Assembly: GCA_031285325.1 (NCBI GenBank)
Contig: JAITWJ010000073.1
Span: 1-45,700, forward strand
Source: Bacteroidales bacterium
Lineage (GTDB): Bacteria; Bacteroidota; Bacteroidia; Bacteroidales; Prolixibacteraceae
Reading direction: 5' to 3'
DNA length: 45,700 nt
This document shows, one piece after another, positions 6,590 to 45,518 of the stretch. The notes under the pieces were generated by a model that was not told the DNA's origin, did not search any database, and saw only the letters and a program-made list of their open reading frames with translations. Every line of letters begins with the position of its first letter. The stretch's first letter is position 1. Position numbers and translations under genes: made by a program.

Positions 6590-7011
6590 AGTTGACAGAG
6601 GCTTCGCGCTGTTGCCGGCAGTAACGGCGAAACAATCAGGAACAATTAATAATTAAGAGAGAGGATACGACAGCATCGCAAGCACCAAAACGATGATTTT
6701 GCCTCTTGCGGAGTTTCCGCAAACCCCAAAATGAAGATTTTACCTCTTGCGGAGTTTCCGCAAACCCCAAAAAGATGATTTTGCCCCTTGCGGAGTTTCC
6801 GCAAACCCCCAAAAGATAATTTTGCAACATGAAATCAAAACCACAACGATATGAAACGTAAATAAATCAATCTTTAACACCGGTAAAACACCGGGCGCTT
6901 CGATTTTTATGCCGGCGGTGTTGGCCAACACCGCCGAAACTACCGAAACCACCGCGAAGCAGTTCATCGAAGGGGGGGCAAAAAACTTATCCTGTAAATT
7001 CAAAACAGTTT
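6590..7011 (+). repeat. composite intergenic repeat element, locus A, with three 41-bp hairpin units
   Basis: Units at 6692-6732, 6733-6773, 6774-6814 (GATGATTTTGCCTCTTGCGGAGTTTCCGCAAACCCCAAAA); right end GCAGTTCATCGAAGGGG...AAATTCAAAACAGTTT at 6996-7011 shared with loci B and C. Confidence 0.85.
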
Positions 7012-7041
7012 CTAAATAATTATTCCTTATTTTGTAAACTG

Positions 7042-17576: not shown

Positions 17577-18278
17577 TTATTCGTTGGCCATGTTAACAAT
17601 GCTGCATGCAATTACTCCGGCTGTTTCTGTTCTTAACTTTGAATTTCCAAGGCTTGTTTCTCTGAAACAGCGCCTTTGGGCGTACTGTACTTCTTCTGTG
17701 GTAAAATCGCCTTCGGGGCCGATGAGGACAAGTATGCCTTCACCTTTTTTTACTGTGTTTTTCAGGTGGTTTTTTTCTCCGTGCCCGCAGTGGGCAATAT
17801 ATTTATTTTTGCAGATTGCCGTTGAAATTAAATTATTGAAGCAGGTTATTTTGTTTAACACCGGAAGATAGGTTTTTACAGATTGTTTCATTGCCGAAAT
17901 TAATATCTTCTCCAAACGTTCTGTGTTTACTGTTTTCCGTTCGGAACGCGCGGTTAACAGCGGCGTAATTTCGTCGATACCTATTTCGGCGGCTTTTTCG
18001 ATAAACCATTCAAAACGGTCGATATTTTTGGTGGGTGCAATTGCTATATGCAGGCGAAAATCTTTTTTCCCGAACTCTGCCTGTTTATCTGTAACTGTAA
18101 GCCGGCATTTTTTCTGATTGGCATCCGATATTTCTGCCCTGTACAATCCGCCTTTACCGTCTGTAATTTGTACTGTGTTTCCGTTGCCAAGCCGCAAAAC
18201 CTTTACTGCGTGTTTCGATTCGTCTTCATTTAAAAAAACTTCGTGGTCCGAAATATCAGGAATATAGAATAATTGCAT
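17577..18278 (-). CDS. rsmE: 16S rRNA (uracil(1498)-N(3))-methyltransferase
   Basis: KHAVKVLRLGNGN; IAPTKNIDRFEWFIEKAAEIGIDEITPL; IGPEGDFTTEEV; LGNSKLRTETAGV. Confidence 0.95.
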   Translation of the reverse strand: MQLFYIPDISDHEVFLNEDESKHAVKVLRLGNGNTVQITDGKGGLYRAEISDANQKKCRLTVTDKQAEFGKKDFRLHIAIAPTKNIDRFEWFIEKAAEIGIDEITPLLTARSERKTVNTERLEKILISAMKQSVKTYLPVLNKITCFNNLISTAICKNKYIAHCGHGEKNHLKNTVKKGEGILVLIGPEGDFTTEEVQYAQRRCFRETSLGNSKLRTETAGVIACSIVNMANE

Positions 18279-18469
18279 GTTTACGGTTGTGTTATGTGCT
18301 GTTAGCGCTTTGTTTTTTATGAAATTGTTTTTGTATATGTTCCGGCAGGCTCCCGTATATTATTGTTTGAATGCCGTTCGGTTTAAAAGCTTTGTTCGTT
18401 TTATTGCGAAGATACACATTGTTTTACAAATTCCGGTGATTGTATTTTGTTGAATGTGAAAATTTGTTC

Positions 18470-18721
18470 CGCGCACCGTCCCCGAAGTTCCGCGCACCGT
18501 CCTCGAAGTTCCAGCCCCCGTCCCCGAAGTTCCAGCCCTCGTCCTTGAAGTTCCAGCCCCCGTCCTTGAAGTTCAATCCCCCGTCCCCGAAGTTCAATCC
18601 CCAGTTCCCGAAGTTCCAGCCCCAGTTCTCGAAGTTCAAACCCTCGTTCCCGAACTTCCAGCCCTCGTCCCCGAATTTCCAGACTCAGTCCTTGAAGTTC
18701 AATCCCTCGTCCTTGAAATTG
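18470..18721. repeat. twelve tandem 21-bp units (CAGCCCCCGTCCCCGAAGTTC-like)
   Basis: Direct alignment of 12 contiguous 21-bp units; GAA(G/C/A)TTC core in nearly all units. Confidence 0.95.
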
Positions 18722-26212: not shown

Positions 26213-26237
26213 AACTACGTTTTAAACTGAAACCTAT

Positions 26238-26652
26238 AAACTGTTTTGAATTTACCAGGATAAGTTTTTTTTACCCCCTTCGATGAACTGTTTCACAGAA
26301 TTGCGATACCTTCGTGCAGGGCTGCACGGTACTTTCGTGGAGTTGCGAAACCTTCGCGCAGGGTTGCACGGCACTTGCGTGAGGCACGAAACGGGAAACA
26401 ATCTACAGCAATTAATAATGGACAATTGACAGTTGACAATTCACAATTAAAAGAAAGGCTGAATTGAGATCTGTATGATTTTAATAATTGCCGTGATTAT
26501 ATTTTACCACACAGAACACAAAGTTTATGCAAAGTTCGCAAAGAAAATCATGCTAATCTTTTAATCCTGTAAATCGTGGTTCAGACATCACTGTCAATTG
26601 TCCACTGTCAATTCTTAATTGTTCCAGACTTCCCGAAATTCAAAAACAGTTT
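26238..26652 (-). repeat. composite intergenic repeat element, locus B, bounded by terminal inverted repeats, with 41-42 bp units
   Basis: TIRs AAACTGTTTTGAATTT (26238-26253) and AAATTCAAAAACAGTTT (26636-26652); units at 26305-26346 and 26347-26387. Confidence 0.85.
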
Positions 26653-26779
26653 CTAATATAAAGATACCAAACAAGAACCTGTTGTTAGTAAACAAACATA
26701 TTTCTTTGCCGGTAGAGCATAGCTTGCAAGTTTTTAGAGTTATCCAATAATTCGGTCTTTTATTTCGAAATAACCGGTA

Positions 26780-34269: not shown

Positions 34270-34284
34270 AAACCTTACATACAA

Positions 34285-34865
34285 TCGACAGTTGATAATT
34301 GACAATTGACAATGGGCTGCTGCGTCATTGCGAACCCGGCAGGGTGAAGCAATCCGGGGTAATTAATAATTGAAAATTGACAATTGATAATTAGTAATGA
34401 ATAACTGTCAACTGTAAATTGTTAACTGTCAATTATACATTATCCATTATCAACAGTCAACCGTCCATTGTCAATTCCACCTGCCACCGTTGCCCCGTTC
34501 CCCGCAATGATGCCAACAAGTGCGAAACTGCTTTCACCATACGATGAAACCATGTTTGAAGGCTTGGAGATACTTTCACCATACGATGAAACTGTGTTTT
34601 CGGGCGGAAAGGTACTTTCCTCAAACGAGGAAACTATGTTTTCGGGCGGAAATGTACTTTCCTCAAGCGGGGAAACTATGTTTTCGGGCGGAAAGGTACT
34701 TTCCTCAAACGGGGAAACTATGTTTTCGGGCGTGAAGGTACTTTCCTCAAACGATGAAACTATGTTTTCGGGCGTGAACATACTTTCATCAAATGGGGAA
34801 ACCACCTCGAAGCAGTTAATGGAAGTGTCTCGAAGAAAACTTGTCAGGTAAATTCAAAACAGTTT
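34285..34865 (+). repeat. composite intergenic repeat element, locus C, with six full 42-bp hairpin units
   Basis: Units 34531-34782 plus partial to 34806 (CTTTCCTCAAACGAGGAAACTATGTTTTCGGGCGGAAAGGTA); right end AAATTCAAAACAGTTT 34850-34865. Confidence 0.9.
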
Positions 34866-37758
34866 ATAAATAAACACTGTTCCGGTTACTTTTTGCCAGT
34901 TCTTCTTTAAGATATTTTGCTGTGAACGATATTTTGTTGTTTATGATTTCTTCCGGTGTTCCGGCACAGATAATTTCGCCGCCGTTTTTGCCGCCTTCAG
35001 GCCCTAAGTCGATAACATAATCAGCTACTTTTATCACATCCATGTTGTGTTCAATTACAATAACGGTATTCCCTTTATCAACCAACCTGTTCAGCACGTC
35101 GAGCAACATGCGGATGTCTTCAAAATGAAGGCCTGTTGTTGGTTCATCGAGAATATAAACAGTTTTTCCTGTTTCGCGTTTGGCAAGTTCGGCTGCTAAT
35201 TTTACCCGCTGCGATTCGCCTCCGGAAAGCGTTGTTGACGGTTGGCCGAGCGTAATGTAACCAAGCCCTACTTCCTGCAAAATTTTGAGTTTTGAAGATA
35301 TTGAAGGTATATTTTCAAAAAAATCAACCCCCTGGTTTATCGTCATGTCAAGTACATCACTTATCGATTTTCCCTTATATTTTATTTCAAGTGTTTCACG
35401 ATTGTAGCGTTTGCCGTTACATTTGCCGCACTGAACATGAACATCTGGCAGAAAATTCATCTCAATAAGTTTCATTCCTCCGCCTTCACACTCTTCGCAC
35501 CGCCCGCCTCTAACATTGAAAGAAAACCGCCCCGGTTTATAAGCTCTCATTTTGGCTTCGGGCAACATGGTAAATAAATTTCGAATATCTGAGAAAATGT
35601 TGGTATATGTTACCGGATTCGATCGCGGAGTGCGCCCAATAGGAGATTGGTCAACACGAATTACACTTTTAATTAATTCAATGCCTTCTACACTTTTGTA
35701 TGGCAGCGGATCGTCAAGCGATTTGTAAAAATGCTGGCTCAGAACAGGCTGTAAAGTGGCGTTTATAAGGGTCGATTTTCCGCTTCCCGAAACGCCTGTT
35801 ACGCAAATAAATTTTCCAAGCGGAATACTTAAGTCCACATTCTTGAGATTATTGCCTGAACATCCGAAAATCTTCAGAAAACTGTTTCCCTCGCTTCTTC
35901 TTGTCTTTGGTATTTCAATTTGCCTGAAATTATTAAGGTATTCTGAAGTTAATGTTTTAATGGTTAAAAAATATTCAGGCTTTCCGGCAGCTACAATTTC
36001 ACCTCCGTGCCTGCCTGCCCGAGGCCCCATATCAATAATATAATCGGCATGAAACATAGTTTCCTTATCATGTTCAACTACTATTACCGAATTACCCGAA
36101 TCGCGCAGTTGCTCCAATGCGTGTATCAGTTTCATGTTATCGCGGTGATGCAGTCCAATACTGGGTTCATCGAGTATATAAAGTACATTTATCAGTTGCG
36201 AACCTATCTGCGTAGCCAACCTTATACGCTGCGATTCGCCGCCGGAAAGCGTTTGTGCCGTGCGGTCGAGCGAAAGGTAATTAAGACCGACACCGAGCGT
36301 AAAACTCAGGCGGTTTCGGATTTCTTTTATTACTTCGCCGGCAATTTTACGTTGCCTGTCTGTTATACGGTCTTCCAAATTTGAAAACCAGTTCCATAAT
36401 TCATCCAAATCCATGCGTGCAAGCTCAGAAATATTCTTCCCATCAATTTTAAAGTGAAGCGATTCTTTTTTTAGCCGTAACCCATTACACTCAGTACATG
36501 TAGAAGTCTTCACAAATTGCCCTGCCCATTTCTGTGCGTTTTTCGATGGATTGTCTTCTCTCTGGCTGTTAATGTATTTTATTATGCCCTCATAAGCCGT
36601 CATGTAATTCATGCCTGCGCCAAGAGGTGTATTCTTTAGATGGATGCGTTCATTTGTACCAAAGAGTACGGCTTGCAGGCTTTCTTCTGAAATATTATTT
36701 ATCGGAGTTGTAAGGTTAAAATCTAATTTTTCTCCCAATGCTTCAATCTGCCAAAAAATCAGAGAATTTTTATATGAACCCAGAGGAGCAATCCCCCCTT
36801 TTCCAATACTTTTGGTTTTATCAGGGATTATTTTATCCATATCTATTTCGGTTACACGCCCCAGGCCGTTGCAGCGCTGGCAGGCGCCTTGCGGCGAATT
36901 GAACGAAAAATTATGCGGCGCCGGTTCTGCATACGAAATACCTGTTGTTGGACACATGAGCAGGCGACTGTAATATTTTGTGGTTTTCGTTTCACTGTCG
37001 AGTATCATTAAAATACCTTGACTGTTTTTCATGGCTGTTTGTACCGAATTTCTTAGCCGTACTTCTCCGGCATCGTCAACTACAATTTTGTCTATTACAA
37101 TTTCAATGAAATGGTTTTTATATCTGTCAACGCGGTAATTGTGTTTCAGTTCGGTAATTTCACCATCGATACGCACATGCAGGAATCCTTTGCGCAAAAT
37201 TTGCTCGAAAAGTTCACGGTAATGTCCTTTACGGCCTTTTACCACAGGAGAAAGTATGTAAATTCGTTTTCCTGCAAAATCATCTTTAATGAGCCGTATA
37301 ATTTTTTCGTCGGTATATTTTACCATTTTCTCGCCGGTATTGTACGAAAAAGCTTCGCCGGCACGGGCAAAAAGCAAACGCATAAAATCATATATCTCGG
37401 TAACAGTACCAACTGTTGAACGTGGGTTAAGCGAAGTTACCTTTTGTTCTATGGCAATTACAGGGCTTAATCCGGTAATTTTGTCAACATCCGGACGTTC
37501 CATATTCCCAAGGAAAGATCTGGCATAAGCAGAAAATGTTTCAATGTAGCGACGCTGGCCCTCAGCATATATGGTATCGAACGCAAGCGAAGACTTTCCA
37601 CTTCCGCTTAGCCCTGTAATTACGGTAAGTTTGTTTCTTGGAATCTTAACATTAATATTTTTAAGATTATGTACTCTTGCGCCAATTATCAAAATAGATT
37701 CTTCATCGTCAATAAGCTCAATGTCTTCACTTATTTTTGGCATGTTTGAAATATTCAT
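34864..37758 (-). CDS. uvrA: excinuclease ABC subunit UvrA
   Basis: VHNLKNINVKIPRNKLTVITGLSGSGKSSLAFDT; zinc-finger CxxC pairs; LSGGESQRIRLA twice; 964 aa. Confidence 0.98.
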   Translation of the reverse strand: MNISNMPKISEDIELIDDEESILIIGARVHNLKNINVKIPRNKLTVITGLSGSGKSSLAFDTIYAEGQRRYIETFSAYARSFLGNMERPDVDKITGLSPVIAIEQKVTSLNPRSTVGTVTEIYDFMRLLFARAGEAFSYNTGEKMVKYTDEKIIRLIKDDFAGKRIYILSPVVKGRKGHYRELFEQILRKGFLHVRIDGEITELKHNYRVDRYKNHFIEIVIDKIVVDDAGEVRLRNSVQTAMKNSQGILMILDSETKTTKYYSRLLMCPTTGISYAEPAPHNFSFNSPQGACQRCNGLGRVTEIDMDKIIPDKTKSIGKGGIAPLGSYKNSLIFWQIEALGEKLDFNLTTPINNISEESLQAVLFGTNERIHLKNTPLGAGMNYMTAYEGIIKYINSQREDNPSKNAQKWAGQFVKTSTCTECNGLRLKKESLHFKIDGKNISELARMDLDELWNWFSNLEDRITDRQRKIAGEVIKEIRNRLSFTLGVGLNYLSLDRTAQTLSGGESQRIRLATQIGSQLINVLYILDEPSIGLHHRDNMKLIHALEQLRDSGNSVIVVEHDKETMFHADYIIDMGPRAGRHGGEIVAAGKPEYFLTIKTLTSEYLNNFRQIEIPKTRRSEGNSFLKIFGCSGNNLKNVDLSIPLGKFICVTGVSGSGKSTLINATLQPVLSQHFYKSLDDPLPYKSVEGIELIKSVIRVDQSPIGRTPRSNPVTYTNIFSDIRNLFTMLPEAKMRAYKPGRFSFNVRGGRCEECEGGGMKLIEMNFLPDVHVQCGKCNGKRYNRETLEIKYKGKSISDVLDMTINQGVDFFENIPSISSKLKILQEVGLGYITLGQPSTTLSGGESQRVKLAAELAKRETGKTVYILDEPTTGLHFEDIRMLLDVLNRLVDKGNTVIVIEHNMDVIKVADYVIDLGPEGGKNGGEIICAGTPEEIINNKISFTAKYLKEELAKSNRNSVYL

Positions 37759-40069: not shown

Positions 40070-40256
40070 ATTTGGTTTGTTTAAATTTCCACAAAATTAC
40101 CAATCTCTATTCAATAATTATAATTTTTATGTGAATTTTATTACTGACCTTTAGTTTTGACTGATGGAACGTTAGTTTGATTAATCTACAATGAAGGTTT
40201 CGGCACAATATTCCCCATCCCGATATAATCAGGGGAAATAGATATAATAACTTAAA

Positions 40257-40634
40257 AAACCGTTTTTGAATTTCATAAAACAGGGAAAACAATTCTTAAT
40301 TGCTGTTGAATGTTTCCCGCTTCGCAAGCTCGCGGTTCGCAATGACGCAGCAGCCAAACTACACGGATTACGGCTTGCGCAGCCCGTGCAACGACCAAAT
40401 GACAAGATTTACGGCTTGCGCAATCCGCGCAACTACCAAATGGTACGATTTGCCACTTGCGCAGCCCGTGCAACGACCAAATCACACGATTCACTACTTG
40501 CGGAAACTACTGCAAACCCGAAAATCACCAATTTGCAATGTATAATTGTTGTTGTTCACTGTCAATTGTCAATCGCGAGGCAGTTCATGGAAGGGTCTAA
40601 AAAGAAACTTGTCCGGTAAATTCAAAAACGGGTT
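40257..40634 (+). repeat. composite intergenic repeat element, locus D, bounded by terminal inverted repeats, with three 41-bp hairpin units
   Basis: TIRs AAACCGTTTTTGAATTT (40257-40273) and AAATTCAAAAACGGGTT (40618-40634); units 40369-40409, 40410-40450, 40451-40491. Confidence 0.88.
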
Positions 40635-40718
40635 CTCTGTTGCGTTTAATCAAAACAATGTCATTATAGTAAGAAATACTCCGGGAATAAGCAAAATTTT
40701 AATGAAATAAATATATAA

Positions 40719-44856: not shown

Positions 44857-44960
44857 CGCCGATATTCAATTTTGCTTTTTAATGAAAATTGCATTGAATA
44901 AAAGGCGGTATCCCGAAAAGCCTTAAATAGAGTAGGGGCAAGTTAAAAAAATTAAGTAAC

Positions 44961-45518
44961 ATGAAAAAATTTTTATTTTCGGCAATTGTGATTCTTTTTG
45001 CTGTTTCGGTGACTAATGCGCAAGATGTGTTCAAGAAAGGTGATTTAGTATTTAACGCTGGTGTCGGGGTTAATAATTCGCTTTATTCGGGAAACGGATA
45101 TAAGAGTACTATCCCTGTTGCAATTTCAGGCGAGTATGGAGTTGCAGAAAACTTGATTGGCGGCGATAACGGATCGATAGGTGTAGGCGGTTATTTGGGC
45201 TACACAGGATCTAAATATGATGCAGGTATTGCAGATTTTAGTGTTAAATACAGCAGTATTATTGTTGGCGCTCGCGGAACTTTCCACTACCAGTTCGTAA
45301 ATAAACTCGACACTTATGCAGGCCTTATGCTGGGTTATGACGTTGTTTCTTCAAAAGTTACCGGTACGCTTGCAGGAGGTTATGCTGCTTCAGCAAGCGG
45401 ATTCTCGTCATCGTTTTTCCTTGGCGCACGTTATTGGTTTGCTCCGGCAGTTGGTGCATTCGCAGAATTAGGTTCCGGAATTTCAAACTGCACACTTGGT
45501 GTTGCTTTCCGCCTGTAG
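44961..45518 (+). CDS. outer-membrane beta-barrel (porin family) protein
   Basis: Signal peptide ...VSVTNAQD; alternating beta-strand pattern; GLMLGYDVV, FFLGARYWFAPAVGAFAELG. Confidence 0.85.
   Translation: MKKFLFSAIVILFAVSVTNAQDVFKKGDLVFNAGVGVNNSLYSGNGYKSTIPVAISGEYGVAENLIGGDNGSIGVGGYLGYTGSKYDAGIADFSVKYSSIIVGARGTFHYQFVNKLDTYAGLMLGYDVVSSKVTGTLAGGYAASASGFSSSFFLGARYWFAPAVGAFAELGSGISNCTLGVAFRL

Follow-up and report, generated by a model that had tools for sequence, protein, structure and literature searches.

The window analysed here, a stretch of 45,700 nucleotides from the draft genome of a Bacteroidales bacterium, contains at positions 40257-40634 (locus D) two terminal inverted repeats (TIRs) that enclose a short array of palindromic units, and the question is what kind of element this is and where its repetitive core comes from. 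We suggest that locus D is probably a non-autonomous IS5-type MITE, and that its core represents an orphan of a Bacteroidota module made up of an array and a gene of the DUF6261 family. The two arms match as inverted repeats at 16/17 positions, and the three 17-bp palindromes between them are spaced by exactly 41 bp, which confirms the original prediction of TIRs around three 41-bp units. The stem expected in each unit is present as three palindromes, but it is perfect in unit 2 alone, the inner triplet being imperfect in two of the three units, and a fourth unit is degenerate. Both TIRs of locus D deviate from the family consensus in a similar way (CTGTTTT to CCGTTTTT), a pattern that would fit correction of one end against the other. 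No DUF6261 match was found within the whole window, and the array of locus D is for this reason called an orphan copy.

Table 1. Repeat arrays and shell ends in the window.
Feature	Coordinates	Strand	Description and basis
Locus D left TIR	40257..40273	+	AAACCGTTTTTGAATTT; sequence; left-end profile match 40252-40289, score 19
Locus D right TIR	40618..40634	+	AAATTCAAAAACGGGTT; sequence; profile score 50
Locus D entire conserved right end	40574-40637	+	profile match
Locus D array	40354..40502	+	41-bp units, class-A geometry TTGC-NNN-LLL-NNN-GCAA; TRF period 41, 3.6 copies, 76% matches
Locus D unit 1 palindrome	40375..40391	.	TTGCGCAGCCCGTGCAA, imperfect; sequence
Locus D unit 2 palindrome	40416..40432	.	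TTGCGCAATCCGCGCAA, perfect apart from loop, stem TTGCGC/GCGCAA
Locus D unit 3 palindrome	40457..40473	.	TTGCGCAGCCCGTGCAA, imperfect; sequence
Locus A array	6677..6825	+	41-bp units (TTGCGGA-GTT-TCCGCAA)
Locus A shell right end	6953..7017	+	profile match; right-end 23-mer recurs at 6983-7005
Locus B array	26298..26392	-	42-bp units, 2.3 copies
Locus B complete shell	26234..26656	-	right end 26234-26296, left TIR 26630-26656
Locus C array	34531..34802	+	42-bp units, 6.5 copies (CTTTCCTC-AAAC-GAGGAAAC)
Locus C shell right end	34807..34870	+	profile match; right-end 23-mer recurs at 34837-34859
Array without shell	18466..18720	-	21/42-bp phased, ~11 copies, GAACTTC-centred; intergenic

The right end of locus D was said to recur at ~7.0, ~26.25 (inverted) and ~34.85 kb, and it does so at all three places (Table 1), with no recurrences at loci A and C expected in shuffled sequence; all four shells of the window are intergenic. 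The unit sequences differ between the loci when compared with one another, so that the array sequence is locus-specific, as had been claimed. The picture of a constant shell around an interchangeable core of hairpin repeats is borne out; one correction is that loci A and C have no left TIR within 1.6 kb, and complete two-ended elements in the window are therefore limited to B and D. The array without a shell is flanked by genes for an RNA methyltransferase (17577-18278, minus strand) and an M24 peptidase. Shell interiors also hold 7-bp satellites of the TCAATTG type (for example at window positions 34281-34480) and a GGATTGCTTCG...CAATGACG repeat, and the shells thus appear to collect several repeat families. 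An Rfam search of the window gave no RNA family match at any shell.

Outside the window, the host assembly is a draft of 2.16 Mb in 149 contigs, of which ~774 kb were fetched for the profile search. The right-end 23-mer, allowing up to two mismatches, has 27 matches in the genome and none in the control, and the outer TIR 16-mer has 127, compared to 3 in the reversed control; the profiles detect 52-55 right ends and ~32 good left ends, with the consensus ends AGAAACTGTTTTGAATTTCAGGAAAC (left) and AAACTTATCCGGTAAATTCAAAACAGTTTCT (right). The shell is hence a dispersed family, as proposed from the window, with at least 50 copies in the draft genome. No transposase ORF is found inside the shells, and the single long ORF that they contain, in the copy on contig C6, encodes a DUF6261 protein. 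TIRs, many copies and no internal transposase all fit the earlier suggestion that the element is MITE-like and moved in trans. Across 60 genomes from its taxonomic family the TIR family has 0-5 matches, as against 81 in the host, and among these relatives the expansion is confined to this species; the few matches in relatives are mostly isolated, with about three two-ended elements of ~160-370 bp and GAGACTGTTTT-type ends, beside which no transposase was recognised.

A 3-bp target of the TNA type is a feature of part of the IS5 family. The shells are flanked by TWA on most sides, and among 26 paired elements 10 have identical 3 bp on both flanks, a weak excess over the 6.6 of permutations (p=0.06); together these suggest, but do not prove, a target of this type. 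As for the enzyme that might move the shells, neither of the two candidates named in the original prediction was found: a search for Y1 transposases (PF01797) gave 0 matches in the genome, which leaves a RAYT and a BIME-like nature unsupported, and of the five PF01609 (DDE) transposases in the draft genome none has the ends of the shell, so that no autonomous IS with this TIR is seen there, although a transposase of another family, or one in sequence missing from the draft, may have them. From its sequence, the shell resembles a non-autonomous MITE of the IS5 type, and it is likely to be mobile. Exact matches to a longer right end in the genome collection come only from three MAG bins, all of sample TD116; we infer that the sample comes from a termite gut and that the host is a gut Bacteroidales. 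The shell is also present in three TD116 bins other than that of the host, labelled as different taxa (L058, L059, L060), which reflects either a shared element or misbinned contigs.

The layout had been described as lying outside the standard classes, but it has a precedent in two element families of Porphyromonas gingivalis (PMC4596501). The closest published relative of the shell is MITE464/PgRS, a multi-copy, TIR-bounded element without transposase that carries 41-nt tandem direct repeats, as do shells of the host, and has an IS5-type TIR, GAGACTGTTGCA (PMC4596501). The host TIR GAAACTGTTTTGAATTT (consensus GAAACTGTTTTG) is not the same sequence, being alike at 8 of the first 12 positions; in addition, the host units are locus-specific, with compensating palindromes, and their array type is linked to DUF6261, palindromy and such a link being possible in PgRS too. 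In the BrickBuilt MITE a leader and a tail frame a minisatellite; it is intergenic and has ~19 copies (PMC4596501). It resembles the host shells in these respects, but its unit is 23 nt long with one sequence common to all copies and its TIR is of the GAGACCTTTGCA type (PMC4596501), while the host units are 41-42 bp long and specific to their locus. Since shells with internal tandem repeats have been published, the layout alone is not new: the shell is a variant on an already known type, the minisatellite-bearing MITE, and the new part is the link of its core to DUF6261. REP/REPIN elements with their RAYT genes are similar in that palindromic repeats stand beside one gene family and also occur as many orphan copies, but the host has no Y1 transposase, DUF6261 has no transposase match, and the arrays follow multiples of 21 bp. 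CRISPR arrays, with identical repeats parted by unique spacers, differ in that the host units run head-to-tail without spacers.

The link to DUF6261 is seen within the shell family itself. In the shell at C6:10534-12069 the array is followed by a 245-aa ORF that matches Pfam PF19775 (DUF6261) with E=1.8e-34. DUF6261 is represented in the host by four intact genes, by two truncated copies and by an internal fragment, and a 41- or 42-bp array lies directly upstream of the start codon in all four intact genes and in both truncated copies; the three intact genes on C69, C117 and C123 have no clear shell around them. The shells form a deletion series, from an array with the whole gene (C6) to 38 remaining codons (C107) and then to ~20 codons, here fused with the right end of the shell (C1, ...GAATACTGGCAGTTCATGTAAGAATATC...), most of the remaining shells having the array alone, or neither array nor gene. 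Among 69 arrays with periods of 39-45 bp in the fetched part, 66 have a period of exactly 41 or 42 bp, and 35 of 52 shell right ends have an array within 700 bp on their inner side. On sequence grounds, we take the window arrays to be gene-less orphan copies of the array type that normally precedes DUF6261.

DUF6261 is present in 15/148 genomes of the order Bacteroidales, with up to 19 copies each. For 50 loci we measured self-similarity at lags of 40-44 in the 400 bp upstream of the gene and scored values above the 99% level of shuffles: such repeats are found upstream in 42/50, compared to 2/49 downstream and 4/47 farther upstream, and every strong best lag upstream of DUF6261 is 41, 42, 43 or 83. 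By the same criterion, about 10 of 14 evaluable DUF6261 loci in a hold-out set from other orders and classes have an array. In a pooled count, for which a separate threshold from that of the 50-locus test was used, lags of 21n bp occur within 400 bp upstream of 51/63 DUF6261 genes vs 11/62 downstream, and off-phase lags in 6/63 and 6/62, respectively. The unit of ~42 bp corresponds to four turns of DNA, and the distance from array to ATG is often only 21-50 bp; about 20% of DUF6261 genes have no detectable array. In Prevotella nigrescens (NZ_CP082843.1), 41-bp units containing TTGCCGAAGTTCGGCAA are found at the gene of DUF6261 protein WP_004367630.1 (416420-417373), the RefSeq start of which falls inside the array; the true start is likelier the in-frame ATG downstream of the array, at position 2465 of locus L322. 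We found no published description of the array-DUF6261 link in the open-access literature.

A degenerate class-A pattern of 41 bp occurs in 2/148 genomes of the order, and both encode DUF6261. The backwards-pattern control has 8 matches in a DUF6261 genome with arrays (G110) and is not a clean zero. One genome (G002) has a class-A array preceding DUF6261 and a second, orphan array of near-identical units, which indicates that an array may be moved or copied independently of the gene. Conversely, DUF6261 is encoded on a gut phage scaffold (MT837725.1) where no array accompanies it; two scans of viral_contigs gave no relative.

Arrays of this kind are not limited to DUF6261. Further arrays of 41-42 bp away from the gene were found in three other genomes (~1.19 Mb), including 42-bp arrays in G092, some of them beside other small-protein genes, and one of the further arrays precedes a member of the PQLLE family (NCBIfam NF052641). 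For strong PQLLE genes, phased repeats of 21n bp are found upstream in 11/15 and downstream in 3/14, with off-phase repeats in 1/15 (examples are L292-L295, L298, L312 and L319), so that the phenomenon may be wider than DUF6261.

The arrays seem to conserve palindromy and period rather than sequence. Consensus units are more palindromic than shuffles in 47/54 arrays (p=5e-9). The class-A geometry is common to 18 arrays of the host genome, and the inner triplets are exactly complementary in 15 of them (permutation mean 2.6, maximum 9 in 5000), locus D with its consensus triplets GCA/CGT being among the three without perfect complementarity. The complementary triplets are of six kinds (GGA, CGA, GCA, ATC, TAA and CAC), and since they vary between loci, palindromy is kept while the sequence changes. 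Protein and unit similarity are correlated across DUF6261 loci (Mantel r=0.48); at the same time, the paralogues L149 and L161, with 85% protein similarity, have unrelated array units, which suggests that shape and phase are kept, not the exact sequence, and argues against sequence-specific recognition by DUF6261. A sequence-specific operator for DUF6261 is thus disfavoured. A coding role cannot explain the arrays in general, since 41 bp is not divisible by 3 and yet, in arrays linked to DUF6261, occurs about as often as 42 bp. As for the protein itself, only PF19775 exceeds the cut-off in Pfam, a PDB sequence search returned no significant match apart from a weak one to part of BibA, and PADLOC and PHROGs gave isolated weak matches, none convincing. 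No conserved neighbour gene or operon partner was seen at DUF6261 loci.

In type III toxin-antitoxin systems such as ToxIN, the inhibitor of the toxin is a tandem-repeat RNA encoded in front of the toxin gene; the RNA repeats are ~36 nt long and the toxin has the ToxN fold. A structured RNA was among the earlier proposals for this locus, and the position of the stem-bearing arrays immediately before one small-protein gene, at DUF6261 loci if not at the window orphans, would suit an array transcribed as a string of RNA hairpins with DUF6261 as the toxin; the plus strand of the locus D array also folds better than shuffles (z=-2.6, minus strand z=-0.7). Across 54 arrays, however, stem mismatches are balanced (G.T 110 vs A.C 122) and sense and antisense MFE do not differ (Wilcoxon p=0.23), so that it appears to be double-stranded DNA that is under constraint and not an RNA of one strand, a test which the folding of a single locus does not outweigh. 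At 6/48 loci (0.1 expected) a canonical promoter, TTG-N-TAnnTTTG, lies between array and start codon, and transcription from it would leave out the array; at most other DUF6261 loci a canonical promoter is not seen, some of them having too little room for one. A period fixed at multiples of 21 bp is no requirement of an RNA, and DUF6261 matches no ToxN/AbiQ-type or other toxin family. We thus consider a function at the RNA level distinctly improbable. The phased repeats upstream of DUF6261 also resemble plasmid partition centromeres such as parC, where phased DNA repeats upstream of the gene for a binding protein act as its operator, but no NTPase partner was found at DUF6261 loci, which are chromosomal and multi-copy, with units that share no sequence.

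Two further explanations would assign no role to the arrays. Template switching in quasi-palindromes together with slippage could produce functionless arrays that accumulate upstream of genes and in MITE shells, and this would account for units that are uniform within a locus and different between loci, for the unrelated units of close paralogues and for the many orphans. Such turnover predicts neither the strong upstream bias at DUF6261, nor the same position of the array in other orders and classes, nor, for both protein families, periods confined to multiples of 21 bp, and we regard it as unlikely. Locus D could also be a plain MITE with a captured minisatellite, like PgRS or BrickBuilt, in which the shell alone matters and the array is incidental; the TIRs, the TWA target, the dispersed and, in the window, intergenic copies and the published precedent with 41-nt repeats are all in line with this. 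This reading is already weakened by the same class of arrays upstream of DUF6261 in genomes and at loci without this shell, and arrays within only part of the shells indicate that shell and array are separable, so that an incidental array has, in our view, a rather small chance of being the explanation.

We return to the orphan-module reading, in which the arrays most likely form, to judge from their sequences, a helically phased palindromic DNA platform upstream of DUF6261 for a putative geometry-reading protein. The module comprises tandem palindromic units of 41-43 bp directly upstream of the gene for the small DUF6261 protein, and the array would act as double-stranded DNA that turns a palindrome to the same face once per two to four helical turns. 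A protein that recognises geometry and not exact sequence may bind or shape it, and the DUF6261 protein would be the first candidate reader, either for autoregulation or as part of a nucleoprotein scaffold. Slippage would alter the number of units and homogenise them, giving each locus its own palindrome. We speculate that the IS5-like shell captured array and DUF6261 gene in this species and then spread in trans, and that later loss of the gene by internal deletion could have left the orphan arrays of the window.

More broadly, we give about an even chance to the existence of an undescribed Bacteroidota module in which locus-specific palindromes, phased at 21n bp, stand upstream of paralogous small-protein genes (DUF6261 and at least PQLLE), with geometry conserved, sequence free and orphans spreading alone or in mobile shells. 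DUF6261, an uncharacterised Pfam family, thereby gains its first strong genomic association, and conservation of period and palindromy without that of sequence is an unusual mode of constraint. It predicts that phase matters and sequence does not, a prediction open to testing in Prevotella nigrescens and other culturable species. The link between array and DUF6261 is also a candidate explanation for the 41-nt repeats in the MITEs of P. gingivalis.

On G092:C4 (at 297 and 337 kb) and G063:C1 (at 281 kb), 42-bp arrays have genes for other small proteins within ~0.5 kb, and these may represent further array-linked families; two array-adjoining small proteins have carboxypeptidase-regulatory-like domains at the C-terminus. 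Elsewhere in the window, a DUF805b cis-regulatory RNA motif (Rfam RF02914), a regulatory element of known kind, is located at 44902-44938, 22 bp upstream of the ORF at 44961-45518.
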